NCBI RefSeq assembly: GCF_900188405.1
Contig: NZ_FZOF01000002.1
Location: forward strand, 310,001-374,000
DNA length: 64,000 bases
From: Actinacidiphila glaucinigra
GTDB lineage: Bacteria; Actinomycetota; Actinomycetes; Streptomycetales; Streptomycetaceae
Direction: 5' to 3'
Made by a program: the position numbers and the translations under genes. Shown here one piece after another: positions 35,690 through 39,414 of the stretch (positions are counted from its first letter, which is position 1; each line of letters begins with the position of its first letter). Under the pieces are notes generated by a model that saw only the letters and a list, made by a program, of their open reading frames with translations, had not been told where the DNA came from and did no database searches.

Positions 35690-37006
35690 TCAGGCCCGCG
35701 GCGCCAGGTCGAGGCAGGCCGCCACGCGCAGCGCGACGTCCTCGGCGAAGGCGGCGTCCGCCCGGTCGAAGGGACGGCGGCCCGTGCCGCGCAGGAAGGT
35801 GAGCACGCCGAGCGTGCGGCCCCGGCTGCGCAGCACCGCGCACAGTCCGTGGACGGTTCCGTCGGGCCAGCGCCGGGCGGCGGCCCAGCTGTCGACCTGG
35901 GCCCGTGAGGCGGGCTCGGCGGCCGCCGCCCCGAAGCCGGCCCGGACGGAGCCGGTGCGGGCGACCGCCTGCAGGGCCGGATGCCCCTCCCCGTACCGCA
36001 CCGGGATGCCGCCCGACACCGGCAGGCAGGGCCCCGCGCCGCCGGAGGGCGTGGCGGCGGCCCGGACCAGGCGCGCCCCGTCGGGCGCCAGCACGTCGAG
36101 CAGCGCGTGCTCGGCGAATCCGGCGAGGGAGAAGTCCACGTAGCAGGTGGCGGCCTCCAGGGGCTCCTCGCACTCGGCGACGGCCAGCGCGGCGCGGTGC
36201 AGCTGGTTGCTGCGGAAGCGCAGCCGCGCCGCCTCCTGCTCGGCGACCTTGATGTCGGTGACGTCGTGGAAGAGCCACCCCACGCCGAGCGGGACCGGCT
36301 CCTCCCCCAGCGGCGAGCCGAGCCGCACGAAACCGCTGCGCCAGCAGCAGCGTGTGCCCTCGTCCGCCCGCAGACCCACCCACAGCTCGCTGGGCGCGGG
36401 GGGCGCGCCCTCGGCGAGCACGTGCTGCAGGGCGCTCTCCAGCTCCTCGACGCCCTGGTCGAGGAAGTCGCCCAGCGGTCTCCCGAGCGGCGCGTCCCGG
36501 CTGGTGCGCAGCACGCGGGCGGCGTACGCGTTGACGACGACGGGACGCAGGTCGGCGTCGACGAGGACGACCCCGCACGGCGCGTCGTCGAAGAGCGCCT
36601 CGCTGAGGGCTATCGAGCGCTCCAGGTCGATCTGGGCGTGCACCTCGGAGAACGCGCAGTAGACGCCCGCGGGGCGCCCGTCTGAGCCGTGCACGGCGGC
36701 GGCCTGGGTCCGCACCAGCACCCGGCGGCCGTCCTTGGTCAGCAGCGCGAACTCGTGGACCTGGCGGCCGTCCGCGGCCATGGCGCCCAGCAGCCGCTCG
36801 CGCACCTCCTCGGCGTCGGCGGTGCGCGCGGCCCAGCCGGCGAATCCGCGCCGGCCCACTGCCTCCTCCGCCGTCCAGCCCAGGATGCGGGCGGCCTCGG
36901 AGTTCCAGTGCGTGATCACTCCGTCGCGGTCCAGGGCACAGAGTCCGGCCTCCATGCCGTCGAGGAGCGCGGCGAGCAGCTGCGGCGTCGCATCGAATGA
37001 CTGCAC
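35690..37006 (-). CDS. PAS-PAS-GAF sensory protein
   Basis: The 438-residue protein has two PAS domains (about 10-125: GLCALDRDGVITHWNSEAAR; about 140-260: VVLVDADLRPVVVNAYAARVL) and a GAF-like domain (about 275-435). It has no kinase, phosphatase, GGDEF or DNA-binding output, whereas most Streptomyces relatives end with a SpoIIE phosphatase. It may be a stand-alone sensor that acts through protein contact, or the output domain has been lost. It starts at a GTG; no membrane helix is present. It converges with the SIS gene. Confidence 0.8.
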   Translation of the reverse strand: MQSFDATPQLLAALLDGMEAGLCALDRDGVITHWNSEAARILGWTAEEAVGRRGFAGWAARTADAEEVRERLLGAMAADGRQVHEFALLTKDGRRVLVRTQAAAVHGSDGRPAGVYCAFSEVHAQIDLERSIALSEALFDDAPCGVVLVDADLRPVVVNAYAARVLRTSRDAPLGRPLGDFLDQGVEELESALQHVLAEGAPPAPSELWVGLRADEGTRCCWRSGFVRLGSPLGEEPVPLGVGWLFHDVTDIKVAEQEAARLRFRSNQLHRAALAVAECEEPLEAATCYVDFSLAGFAEHALLDVLAPDGARLVRAAATPSGGAGPCLPVSGGIPVRYGEGHPALQAVARTGSVRAGFGAAAAEPASRAQVDSWAAARRWPDGTVHGLCAVLRSRGRTLGVLTFLRGTGRRPFDRADAAFAEDVALRVAACLDLAPRA

Positions 37007-37101
37007 GTCTGGACATTCAACCCCTGTGTGACCGGCGACACGCGAACTTCACGAAATTCGGCGGCCTCGGTGCCGCGGTTCACGGGGCGGAAAAAAACCA
37101 C

Positions 37102-37130
37102 TTGTCGTCCGGCGGACCGTTTCCTAGGGT
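37102..37130 (+). promoter_or_regulatory. Promoter TTGTCG-N17-TAGGGT
   Basis: TTGTCG (37102-37107) and TAGGGT (37125-37130) are 17 bases apart, matching the housekeeping sigma HrdB pattern. An A7 run lies just upstream (37091-37097). Transcription would start near 37137 and enter the folded RNA described next. Confidence 0.6.
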
Positions 37131-37136
37131 TGCGAG

Positions 37137-37335
37137 CACACACGAAGGGAGGTGGTCCGGAGAATGAGTTCCCATCGGACGCGTGAGGTGACTGCGGGCT
37201 GACGCCTGCGCTCCTCGCCTGCGCGCGATGTGCGTAGCGGGCCAATTCCATCGCAGTCACCCGACCCGCGGGCTCGTCGGATTCGTCCGGCCGATGCCCG
37301 GACGGTTCGCCGTCCGGGGAGCAGCCCGCGGGTCG
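37137..37335 (+). ncRNA. Putative structured small RNA
   Basis: The 399-base space between the PAS/GAF gene and pdxH holds a promoter followed by strongly paired sequence. Stem P1 is GGTGACTGCG (37187-37196) with CGCAGTCACC (37252-37261). Stem P2 is CGACCCGCGGGC (37262-37273) with GCCCGCGGGTCG (37324-37335). Inside P2 are two hairpins with TTCG tetraloops: 37276-37291 (6 bp) and 37297-37318 (9 bp, perfect). P1 and P2 abut and could stack. The next + strand gene begins 1 kb away across antisense pdxH, so this is a free-standing unit. I do not recognise the family. Confidence 0.5.
37164..37202 (+). CDS. 12-codon frame MSSHRTREVTAG in the small RNA
   Basis: An ATG at 37164 follows the near-ideal ribosome site AAGGGAGGT (37145-37153), 11 bases upstream, and the frame stops at 37202. 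Its last codons lie in the left arm of stem P1, so a ribosome at the stop would block that stem. This is the layout of a leader peptide, but no target gene follows. The peptide has no run of one amino acid. Confidence 0.4.
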   Translation: MSSHRTREVTAG

Positions 37336-37404
37336 CCTGCGTTCTCCCCCGCCCTCGCCCGCCGGCATCCGGCTCGGCATTCGGCCCGGCGCCCGGCCCG
37401 CCCC

Positions 37405-38058
37405 TCAGGGCGACAGGCGCCGCACCGTCCAGCCGCCCTCCGCGGCCGTGTACACCAGCCGGTCGTGCAGCCGGTTCTCCCGCCCCTGCCAGAACTCCAC
37501 GCTGCGCGCGACCACCCGGAAGCCTCCCCAGTGGGGCGGCACCGGCACGTCCGTGCCCTCGGGGTAGCGGGCCGCCAGCTCCTCGTAGCGGTGCTCCAGC
37601 TCCTCCCGCGCGCCCACCACCGAGGACTGCTCGCTCGCCCAGGCGCCGATCCGCGAGCCGTGCGGCCGGCTGCGGAAGTAGGCCTCGGTCTCCTCGCGGG
37701 AGACGCGCTCGGCGGCGCCCGCCACGATGACCTGGCGCGCGATCGGGTGCCAGGGGAAGAGCAGCGAGGCGTAGGGCCGCTCGGTGAGTTCGCGGCCCTT
37801 CCTGGAGCCGTAGTTGGTGAAGAAGACGAAGCCGCGGTGGTCGTAGCTCTTCAGCAGGACCGTCCGCGAGCTGGGCAGGCCGTCGGCCCCCGCGGTGGAG
37901 ACCACCATGGCGTTGGGCTCGTCGACGCGGGCGTTGACGGCATCGGCGAACCAGTGCGCGAACTGCGTGTACGGGTCGCCGGCCAGCTCGGCCTCGGTCA
38001 GTCCGCGGGCGCGGTACTGCTTGCGCATGGCGGCGGGGTCGTGGTGGCTGTGCTGCAC
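37405..38058 (-). CDS. pdxH: Pyridoxamine 5'-phosphate oxidase
   Basis: The enzyme uses FMN and oxygen to make pyridoxal 5'-phosphate from pyridoxine or pyridoxamine phosphate. The FMN-binding split barrel shows [53 protein letters not shown] and the C-terminal [13 protein letters not shown]...WTVRRLSP signature, so the enzyme is complete. The start is unsure: GTG 38058 (217 residues) is used, but GTG 38064, GTG 38076 and ATG 38028 are in frame and none has a good ribosome site. It is divergent from citrate synthase across a 12-bp inverted repeat. Confidence 0.9.
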
Positions 38059-38116
38059 CCGCACATCTTGCAGCACGGCGGCGGCACCGTGTGCCGTACG
38101 GTGCGCCGGACGCCGT

Positions 38117-38153
38117 GCGTGAGGTCCGCCGCAACATGTGCCGGACCTCACGC
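38117..38153. promoter_or_regulatory. 12-bp-arm inverted repeat between pdxH and citrate synthase
   Basis: GCGTGAGGTCCG (38117-38128) and CGGACCTCACGC (38142-38153) are perfect arms with a 13-base loop. The site is 59-95 bases before pdxH and 161-197 before citrate synthase. It may be an operator for either gene or an RNA hairpin in a long pdxH leader. Confidence 0.5.
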
Positions 38154-38313
38154 TTCACGTCACCTGCGGGAGGGGACAGACTTACAGGCCGGGTATCTGT
38201 GCCCTCTCGACATCGGGGGATATCGTGCGGGGCACCCAGTGCCGAACCCCATGCCCCACCCCGTGTGCCACAAGCACCACTCGATCGTCGACCGCATCAA
38301 GAGGAGCCGCCTG

Positions 38314-39414
38314 ATGTCCGACTTCGTACCCGGACTCGAGGGAGTCGTCGCCTTCGAGACGGAGATCGCCGAACCCGACAAGGAAGGCGGCGCCCTGCGC
38401 TACCGCGGGGTGGACATCGAGGACCTGGTGGGCCACGTCTCCTTCGGGAACGTGTGGGGCCTGCTGGTCGACGGTGCCTTCAACCCCGGCCTCCCCCCGG
38501 CCGAGCCCTTCCCGATCCCCGTGCACTCCGGCGACATCCGCGTCGACGTCCAGTCGGCGCTGGCGATGCTCGCGCCGGTGTGGGGGCTGCAGCCGCTGCT
38601 GGACATCGACGCCGAGCAGGCCCGCGAGGACCTGGCGCGCGCGGCCGTGATGGCGCTGTCGTACGTGGCACAGTCGGCGCGCGGCCAGGGGCTGCCGATG
38701 GTGCCGCAGCGGGAGATCGACAAGGCGCAGTCGGTCGTCGAGCGCTTCATGATCCGCTGGCGCGGCGAGCCCGACCCGAAGCACGTCGCGGCCGTCGACG
38801 CCTACTGGACCTCCGCCGCCGAGCACGGCATGAACGCGTCCACCTTCACCGCCCGGGTGATCGCCTCCACCGGTGCCGACGTGGCCGCGGCGCTGTCCGG
38901 CGCGGTCGGCGCCATGTCCGGCCCGCTGCACGGCGGCGCTCCCTCGCGCGTGCTGGGGATGATCGAGGAGATCGAGCGCACCGGCGACGCCGAGGCGTAC
39001 GTGAAGCAGGCCCTGGACAAGGGCGAGCGTCTGATGGGCTTCGGCCACCGCGTCTACCGTGCCGAGGACCCGCGGGCGCGGGTGCTGCGCCGTACGGCCA
39101 GGGAGCTGGGCGCCCCCCGCTACGAGATCGCGGAGGCGCTGGAGAAGGCCGCCCTGGAGGAGCTGCACTCCCGCCGCCCGGACCGCGTCCTGGCGACCAA
39201 CGTGGAGTTCTGGGCCGCGATCATCCTGGACTTCGCCGAGGTCCCGGCCCACATGTTCACCTCGATGTTCAGCTGCGCCCGCACCGCGGGCTGGTCGGCG
39301 CACATCCTGGAGCAGAAGCGCACCGGCCGCCTGGTGCGCCCCTCGGCCCGCTACGTCGGCCCGGGCTCCCGCGACCCGCGCGAGGTCGAGGGCTACGCGG
39401 ACATCGCACGCTAG
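38314..39414 (+). CDS. Citrate synthase 2 type
   Basis: The 366-residue enzyme condenses acetyl-CoA with oxaloacetate. Catalytic residues are in SGPLHGGAPSRV (His), GFGHRVYRAEDPRARVL (His) and ILDFAEVPAHMF (Asp). The length and the lack of an N-terminal extension match the short actinobacterial citrate synthase/methylcitrate synthase-like branch, so 2-methylcitrate synthase is an alternative. GAGGAG lies 7 bases before ATG 38314. It stands between pdxH and thpR, an order I recall from S. coelicolor. Confidence 0.93.
   Translation: MSDFVPGLEGVVAFETEIAEPDKEGGALRYRGVDIEDLVGHVSFGNVWGLLVDGAFNPGLPPAEPFPIPVHSGDIRVDVQSALAMLAPVWGLQPLLDIDAEQAREDLARAAVMALSYVAQSARGQGLPMVPQREIDKAQSVVERFMIRWRGEPDPKHVAAVDAYWTSAAEHGMNASTFTARVIASTGADVAAALSGAVGAMSGPLHGGAPSRVLGMIEEIERTGDAEAYVKQALDKGERLMGFGHRVYRAEDPRARVLRRTARELGAPRYEIAEALEKAALEELHSRRPDRVLATNVEFWAAIILDFAEVPAHMFTSMFSCARTAGWSAHILEQKRTGRLVRPSARYVGPGSRDPREVEGYADIAR

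Follow-up and report, generated by a model that had tools for sequence, protein, structure and literature searches.

A short reading frame kept open and terminating in the structured small RNA Ms_IGR-5, a candidate translation-gated RNA

INTRODUCTION

What is the structured RNA that stands on its own between a PAS-like gene and a pdxH-like gene in Actinacidiphila glaucinigra, and why does it carry a 12-codon reading frame behind a strong ribosome site? The window, by which we mean the whole stretch of 64,000 nucleotides that was analysed, had been read before from its letters by a model (here the first-pass annotation), which proposed a free-standing, highly folded RNA whose translation could switch its fold and did not recognise it as a known RNA family. 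That last statement had to be given up, since an Rfam search assigns the RNA to RF02471, Ms_IGR-5, with a score of 81.8 bits (cut-off 45).

Published data on this family exist. RF02471 is transcribed in S. lividans TK24 (PMC8079986), and Ms_IGR-5 counts among the sRNA transcription units of S. avermitilis (PMC8780764). Ribosome-protected reads lie on MS_IGR-5 homologues of M. abscessus and M. smegmatis, in a study which cautions that footprints of ribosomes turn up on many non-coding RNAs (PMC4974804). The C. glutamicum sRNA cgb_09483, between cg0948 and cg0949, is a candidate homologue (PMC4046766), and a uORF, which may lie near this RNA, has been described before Rv0813c in M. tuberculosis (PMC11133741). 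The S. coelicolor RNA scr4389 is a further candidate for the same RNA. The RNA scr2736 belongs to another family, RF02831 (PMC8079986). Neither the Rfam output nor the excerpts of PMC8079986, PMC8780764 and PMC4974804 state a function for Ms_IGR-5, and no ORF within it is mentioned there or in the open-licence literature searched.

RESULTS

The RNA and its parts

P1 was judged in three alignments: A1 (58 sequences, MAFFT, unfitted to structure), A2 (53 new loci, fitted) and A3 (100 sequences, fitted). The features of the locus are given below.

35690-37006, minus strand: PAS-like ORF, upstream flank (ORF list)
37102-37130, plus strand: promoter-like site, TTGTCG (37102-37107), 17 nt, TAGGGT (37125-37130) (sequence, and a layout common to relatives)
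37138-37341, plus strand: predicted RNA gene, Rfam RF02471 Ms_IGR-5 (cmscan 81.8 bits, gathering score 45, E 7.8e-19, model positions 1-184 of 184)
37141-37144, plus strand: 5' strand of P1a, CACG, partner CGTG at 37182-37185 (covariation in A1, A2 and A3; strand placed here by us)
37148-37152, plus strand: GGAGG ribosome site (sequence)
37148-37158, plus strand: extended Shine-Dalgarno sequence GGAGGUGGUCC, lying in the bulge that separates P1a from P1b (almost invariant across the family)
37155-37159, plus strand: 5' strand of P1b, GTCCG, partner CGGAC at 37176-37180 (pairs mostly unchanged, few double changes)
37164-37202, plus strand: 12-codon ORF MSSHRTREVTAG, ATG at 37164, TGA stop at 37200-37202 (start, frame and stop place kept in homologues)
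37182-37185, plus strand: 3' strand of P1a, CGTG (covariation in A1, A2 and A3)
37185-37190, plus strand: second Shine-Dalgarno-like element GAGGUG, 9 nt upstream of the stop codon (invariant in A1)
37187-37196, plus strand: 5' strand of helix I, GGTGACTGCG, the 10-bp stem of the first-pass annotation (compensatory pair types; own partner beats swapped)
37244-37249, plus strand: AAUUCC, an AAUNCC motif 5' of the helix I 3' strand, unpaired in the conserved structure (motif count in homologues)
37252-37261, plus strand: 3' strand of helix I, CGCAGTCACC (pairing with 37187-37196; own-versus-swapped comparison)
37263-37334, plus strand: P5, a terminator-like 12-bp GC hairpin (37263-37274 with 37323-37334) with two inner UUCG hairpins (sequence)
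37279-37288, plus strand: first inner hairpin, GGA-UUCG-UCC (sequence)
inside 37298-37317, plus strand: second inner hairpin, GGACGG-UUCG-CCGUCC (sequence)
37405-38151, minus strand: pdxH-like ORF, downstream flank, convergent with the RNA (ORF list)
from 38314, plus strand: citrate-synthase-like ORF (gltA2), the next plus-strand gene (gene search of flanks)

The ribosome site, the 12-codon frame, the 10-bp and 12-bp stems and the two UUCG-capped hairpins of the first-pass annotation are all present in the sequence. What it called a consensus promoter has a layout (TTGTCG-17-TAGGGT) that is kept in relatives but is not a perfect sigma-70 consensus. Taken by itself, the folding energy is only modestly unusual (z -2.24, with 4 of 200 shuffles folding as well) and counts as weak evidence. 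Of the two TTCG caps, the one that we examined is not conserved: that of the first inner hairpin occurs in 1 of 26 distinct genus sequences, is special to the window's sequence, and was ruled out as a conserved element.

The 5' start of the RNA, as read from the sequence, is predicted at ~37138. All 26 genus sequences have a promoter layout of TTGNNN, 15-19 nt and TANNNT that ends 3-14 nt upstream of the RNA, where 0.7 were expected; across the family, 89 of 140 sequences have it, against an expectation of 1.3. At the other end, the distant homologues L282 and L297 have a hairpin equivalent to P5 that is followed by a T-run, which is the usual form of an intrinsic terminator.

Family membership and spread

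RF02471 is the sole Rfam family over its cut-off in 36000-38500 of the window, with one match in the organism's own genome. Within the genus, 34 of 35 genomes have a match over the cut-off, the missing genome being 71% complete. A sample of the class gave matches at E 0.001 or better in 249 of its 394 genomes, and a sample of the phylum in 57 of its 296, 26 of the latter over the cut-off. Genomes G646 and G400 of the class sample, and G258 of the phylum sample as searched with the 5'-domain model described below, have two matches each, which may represent a second copy or an assembly mixture. As judged from sequence comparison, the window RNA is a single-copy member of Ms_IGR-5, ~200 nt long, with its own promoter-like site and a 3' hairpin.

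A model of the 5' domain, R1, was built from 58 diverse 5' domains truncated before the stop codon. It matches 109 of the 296 phylum genomes, compared with 57 for the Rfam model, and 53 loci outside its training set were fetched from its matches as a second set (50 distinct sequences). A pattern scan of named genomes gave at least 80 loci, mostly from Actinomycetota, including Acidimicrobiia and Solirubrobacterales; records of Mycobacterium, Nocardioides and Amycolatopsis are listed there beside many others of actinobacteria. Among the matches listed, an ORF-bearing RNA was also found in metagenome-assembled genomes named as Acidobacteria (L254), Bryobacterales (L288, L306), Sumerlaeota (L270), Deltaproteobacteria (L282) and Zixibacteria (L297). 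L254 and L297 score above the Rfam cut-off and L306, L270 and L282 below it; L288 is absent from the Rfam-model matches and is weak (27.7 bits), its genome having no match at E 0.001. A broader model, R2, matches 11 of 149 genomes in the phylum of G699, a count that includes G699 itself, in which L306 lies, and 1 of 148 in the phylum of G700, namely G700 alone (the genome of L282); such single cases outside the phylum could be binning errors. The RF02471-like RNAs seen outside Actinomycetota are L254, L270, L282, L288, L297, L306 and L372-L381. The label 'Actinobacteria sRNA' given by Rfam seems too narrow, and the Rfam model misses many divergent members.

A reading frame with a fixed end

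The first set comprised 164 loci; a regular expression that breaks off ahead of the stop codon matched 156 of them, with 141 distinct sequences. An ORF was scored when a start codon 7-14 nt past GGAGG was in frame with a stop codon 4-13 nt past GAGGUGRC, and distinct sequences were counted; as R1 is truncated before the stop codon, circularity is avoided in the second set. The last GAGGTG was used where two occur (L372, L373), and in L379-L381 (GGAGGATG) it was placed by hand. The ORF was kept far more often than expected in all four sets, whose sequences are related, so that the following counts are not independent events.

First set: ORF in 129 of 130; expected 34.2 with the loop shuffled, 10.6 with the downstream part shuffled, 57.0 with one loop base deleted; ATG, GTG or TTG starts alone 115, against 16.4 with the loop shuffled
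Second set: ORF in 50 of 50; expected 11.1, 4.6 and 17.0 by the same controls; ATG, GTG or TTG starts alone 45, against 4.8
Phylum of G699: ORF in 10 of 10; expected 1.9, 1.2 and 1.1; ATG, GTG or TTG starts alone 10, against 0.8
Other phyla, among the matches listed: ORF in 6 of 6; expected 1.5, 0.8 and 1.8; ATG, GTG or TTG starts alone 6, against 0.6

L052, the miss of the first set, and L302 have none of the seven allowed start codons, and ACG stands at the start place in both. Near-cognate starts only (AUA, AUC, AUU, CUG) were seen in L138, L055, L126, L127, L131, L054 and L135, beside a very strong ribosome site; other homologues have AUG, UUG or GUG at this place. Eight of the 164 loci lie outside the regular expression though the models match them (L030, L114, L119, L120, L129, L137, L140, L149), and the ORF is present in seven of these by script and in L140, with GGGGG for GGAGG, by eye. 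Among the named matches listed, which come partly from the same genomes, 74 of 75 family members have the ORF, L302 being the miss; the 75 include L314, labelled Acidobacteriota and acidimicrobial-like by eye, which was not counted for the other phyla. L276, L289, L296, L298 and L311 were treated as chance matches of the pattern and set aside, with no P1 by eye and model scores that are absent or under 19 bits; of these five, L289 alone passes the ORF test.

The place of the stop is also conserved. In 138 of the 141 first-set sequences the stop is the sixth codon from the GAG of GAGGUG, and in L105 it comes one codon later. The codons at this place are TAG (119), TGA (13), TAA (6), AGG (2, in L145 and L148) and CAG (1, in L105, where TAG is next). 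The GAG frame has no stop there in L145 and L148; in these two the start codon sets a different frame, and the stop of that frame falls at this very place. Together with L225, L227, L229, L240, L242, L244, L246 and L247, these make up ten loci in which GAGGUG is in another frame and start and stop are still in frame with each other. ORF length in the family spans 10-22 codons.

Compensatory changes in the stems

In P1a the 5' end of the RNA pairs with later codons of the ORF, leaving the ribosome site as a bulge; in P1b GGUCC pairs with GGAC. The loop of P1 contains the start codon. Double-change cells in P1 exceeded the shuffled level in A1 (65 against 21.5), A2 (64 against 27.1) and A3 (170 against 73.0). 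So did the covariation score, with 0.340 in A1 (shuffled 0.120, slid no more than 0.093), 0.318 in A2 (0.087 and 0.047) and 0.359 in A3 (0.099 and 0.062). Two of the five covariation measures stayed at shuffle level, namely the number of P1 pairs with a double change (5, 6 and 6 in A1, A2 and A3, against 5.6, 5.4 and 5.7) and the further pair types (21, 15 and 24, against 18.8, 14.0 and 22.7). The signal comes from four pairs of P1a; its fifth pair does not form in most sequences. P1b is largely invariant and hardly covaries.

Helix I shows several pair types at its positions 5-9, in an alignment that maximises pairing and with the rows L112, L117, L124 and L142, which look misplaced, left uncorrected within the counts. 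Strands scored better with their own partners than with swapped ones (22.9 against 19.0, 20.4 against 16.6 and 19.5 against 16.0), the gap being small in the acidobacterial set, that of the phylum of G699 (own 16.4, swapped 15.1, shuffled 14.8). The motif AAUNCC stands before the 3' strand in 152 of 195 sequences, against 9.0 shuffled, a count that is biased upward because the helix alignment gave the motif a bonus. The predicted stems P1a and helix I are supported by compensatory change, which the first-pass annotation had itself named as the feature whose lack among relatives would speak against its proposal.

In the first stem drawn by Rfam, 940 of 1170 cells pair and the 5' strand hardly varies; as this strand is the nearly invariant Shine-Dalgarno sequence, the stem has almost no compensatory change, and covariation says little on it either way. 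Energy-based prediction varies with the ends chosen. The predicted fold of 37132-37345 has helix I and the 12-bp hairpin and lacks P1, and that of 37138-37336 has the 12-bp hairpin and lacks both P1 and helix I, the covariation-supported structure lying 3.3 kcal/mol above it.

Codon content and the encoded peptide

Codon statistics were taken from the variable codons of 46 nonredundant ORFs (<80% similarity). The serine codon AGT occurs 35 times in frame and 0 and 0 times in the other two frames (4.1, 2.3 and 3.3 expected), and serine codons taken together 62, 6 and 17 times (20.2, 13.9 and 16.4 expected). His and Asp are also enriched and Val, Ala and Leu depleted; Trp codons showed no enrichment in the 46 ORFs. 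A serine codon is found in the variable part of 29 of the 46 ORFs (16.7 expected), and because the other 17 have none, we speak of a specific sensor of serine or Ser-tRNA only as a possibility. Several relatives of the same family have Tyr where others have Ser. Cysteine sensing was also considered, and Cys occurs in 8 of the 46 ORFs, without clear enrichment over the 6.7 expected.

That start, frame and stop place are kept far beyond shuffled loops, and that the codons are frame-specific, speaks against an ordinary base-pairing sRNA with an incidental ORF. In favour of one, Rfam does file the RNA as an sRNA, and it is structured and single-copy. We regard this explanation as highly improbable.

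The same codons could instead encode a very small peptide with a function of its own, 12 residues long here, RNA structure being secondary. A conserved ORF with in-frame codon bias fits this, as does the peptide end T-[RC]-E-V-[AT], which recurs through most of the first set. However, the codons of these recurring residues lie in RNA that is paired in P1 and helix I, and ORF length varies from 10 to 22 codons. Moreover, the ten other-frame loci encode unrelated peptides (e.g. LHSTSGGGSS) from the same RNA segment, with the ORF open and start and stop in frame, so that peptide conservation independent of RNA structure was not found there. We therefore consider a peptide gene distinctly unlikely. 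From these counts it is the codons that appear to be selected, not just openness, and the peptide itself is probably not the conserved object.

Neighbouring genes

A short ORF whose stop lies in a stem beside a terminator-like hairpin is the anatomy of an attenuator, and a cis-acting leader of a downstream gene has to be weighed. The pdxH-like gene (minus strand) and gltA2 (plus strand) lie downstream in the window's family and, both together, in 12 loci of other families. In the stored flanks, often just 1.5 kb, pdxH was found in 45 of 141 loci, gltA2 in 45 of 141 and the PAS gene in 31 of 141. Against a leader stands the window itself, where the next gene is convergent and the next plus-strand gene begins ~970 bases on, which bears out the earlier statement that no same-direction gene lies within 900 bases. 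Elsewhere the neighbours are of varied families and, by a rough gene caller, the directions of the nearest genes vary: the stored flanks of mycobacterial-type and distant loci have neither pdxH nor gltA2, and Pfam matched 17 of 20 neighbour ORFs from ten loci (same rough caller) to varied families, including THAP4 heme-binding, MFS, luciferase-like and DNA ligase, GCV_T twice (once below cut-off) and a single match to each of two different aminotransferase families. Among the loci with stored flanks, no neighbour gene is conserved over the family. A leader of a family-wide conserved gene was ruled out by these lineage-varying neighbours in the stored flanks, and a leader of any downstream gene is in our view very unlikely.

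The block of pdxH (minus) and the citrate-synthase-like gene (plus), at 37405-39414 of the window, recurs in several actinobacterial families. A link to tRNA genes was considered and is weak, ARAGORN finding tRNAs in 6 of 60 loci, 3 of them shortly downstream on the RNA strand: Gly and Cys at L254:2257-2435 (minus), Glu at L148:3881-3954 (minus) and Glu at L227:1809-1881 (minus).

With its own conserved promoter layout, no family-wide neighbour, and a 3' hairpin with a T-run in L282 and L297, the RNA keeps the free-standing, structured character that was first proposed for it.

DISCUSSION

The family RF02471 was already known; what appears to be new, as none of it was found in the open-licence literature searched, is the conservation of the ORF, the revision of the stems and the extended range of the family. 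Ribosome binding to Ms_IGR-5 is supported by the published ribosome-protected reads on its homologues (PMC4974804). The first-pass annotation had reasoned that the stop of the frame lies in the first stem and that translation could switch the fold. The anatomy is well supported, since start, frame and stop place within the stem are kept across distant bacteria, whereas the helix I switch and any output in trans are what we infer from it.

As the RNA has an attenuator-like anatomy without a gene to attenuate, and a fixed placement of the stop and GAGGUG, we propose a translation-gated RNA: a free-standing, translated RNA in which a ribosome opening helix I would expose the 3' strand and AAUNCC, which might then act in trans. 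This is our preferred reading, held tentatively, its chance of being right falling a little short of even. The 30S subunit would load on the bulged ribosome site of P1. The ribosome would then unfold P1 together with the 5' strand of helix I, ending at the stop inside helix I, where the terminating ribosome would cover the 5' strand. The constant distance of GAGGUG to the stop places it ~6 nt upstream of the last sense codon, which is close to the usual spacing for Shine-Dalgarno pairing, and such pairing could hold the ribosome near the stop. The freed 3' strand and AAUNCC could base-pair with a second RNA or bind a protein, and when the frame is not translated helix I would close and hide both.

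It is conceivable that holding ribosomes is itself the purpose. The RNA would then be a decoy or a sensor for free 30S subunits, in which the extended Shine-Dalgarno sequence and GAGGUG hold 30S subunits or terminating ribosomes and the ORF clears or parks them. GGAGGUGGUCC, which we take to be complementary to the 3' end of 16S rRNA, is kept across nearly all of the family, and the constant distance of GAGGUG to the stop would fit as well. Such a role explains neither the AAUNCC motif nor why helix I varies in a compensatory way, and the 13-base pattern RRGGAGGTGRTCC is at chance level in the genome, with 6 occurrences against 11 for the reversed control. We judge it unlikely.

A bolder form of the translation-gated reading would see in Ms_IGR-5 the actinobacterial branch of a class of ancient, multi-phylum, free-standing translation sensors, in which the ribosome on a frame rich in Ser, Asp and His codons, AGU foremost, sets the exposure of the effector strand. 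We find this doubtful, though not far-fetched. If true, slow decoding or a low supply of ribosomes would alter the output on other RNAs.

An orphan sRNA filed as non-coding that keeps an open, terminating frame offers a first concrete handle on its role. The stems have been corrected, and the matched genomes of the phylum have about doubled (from 57 to 109 of 296), with further cases outside it. Ms_IGR-5 becomes directly testable as a candidate translation-gated RNA.

Comparison with known systems places these features in context. With RF02471 the window RNA shares the core sequence, in a full-length match over the gathering score; Rfam lists the family as 'Gene; sRNA' with the ribosome site and GCUGCC as its first stem, and here P1a and helix I covary instead. 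The 6C RNA (RF01066) is also a free-standing sRNA of the same bacteria (PMC8388888). RF01066 has no match over its cut-off in 36000-38500 of the window. SgrS/SgrT, RNAIII and SR1 are translated small RNAs that encode a functional peptide. The likeness to these dual-function sRNAs lies in a small RNA with translation, here predicted, and the difference in that Ms_IGR-5 keeps its frame and the end of that frame more than the peptide. The rnTrpL RNA, which derives from the trp attenuator, itself acts in trans. In Sinorhizobium meliloti the peTrpL product of rnTrpL also acts in trans (PMC7298713), and the leader-type ORF is what the two RNAs have in common. Unlike rnTrpL, the family of the window RNA has no conserved co-directional gene and no enrichment of Trp codons: where an RNA of the rnTrpL type is followed by a structural gene in its own direction, the window's next gene is convergent and the neighbours elsewhere are varied. 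Codons of one amino acid, enriched in that type, have a partial counterpart in the serine codons, with 62 in frame against 20.2 expected and 17 of 46 ORFs without Ser in their variable part. A short ORF, a strong ribosome site and a stop in a conserved stem, which also mark the rnTrpL type, are found in Ms_IGR-5.
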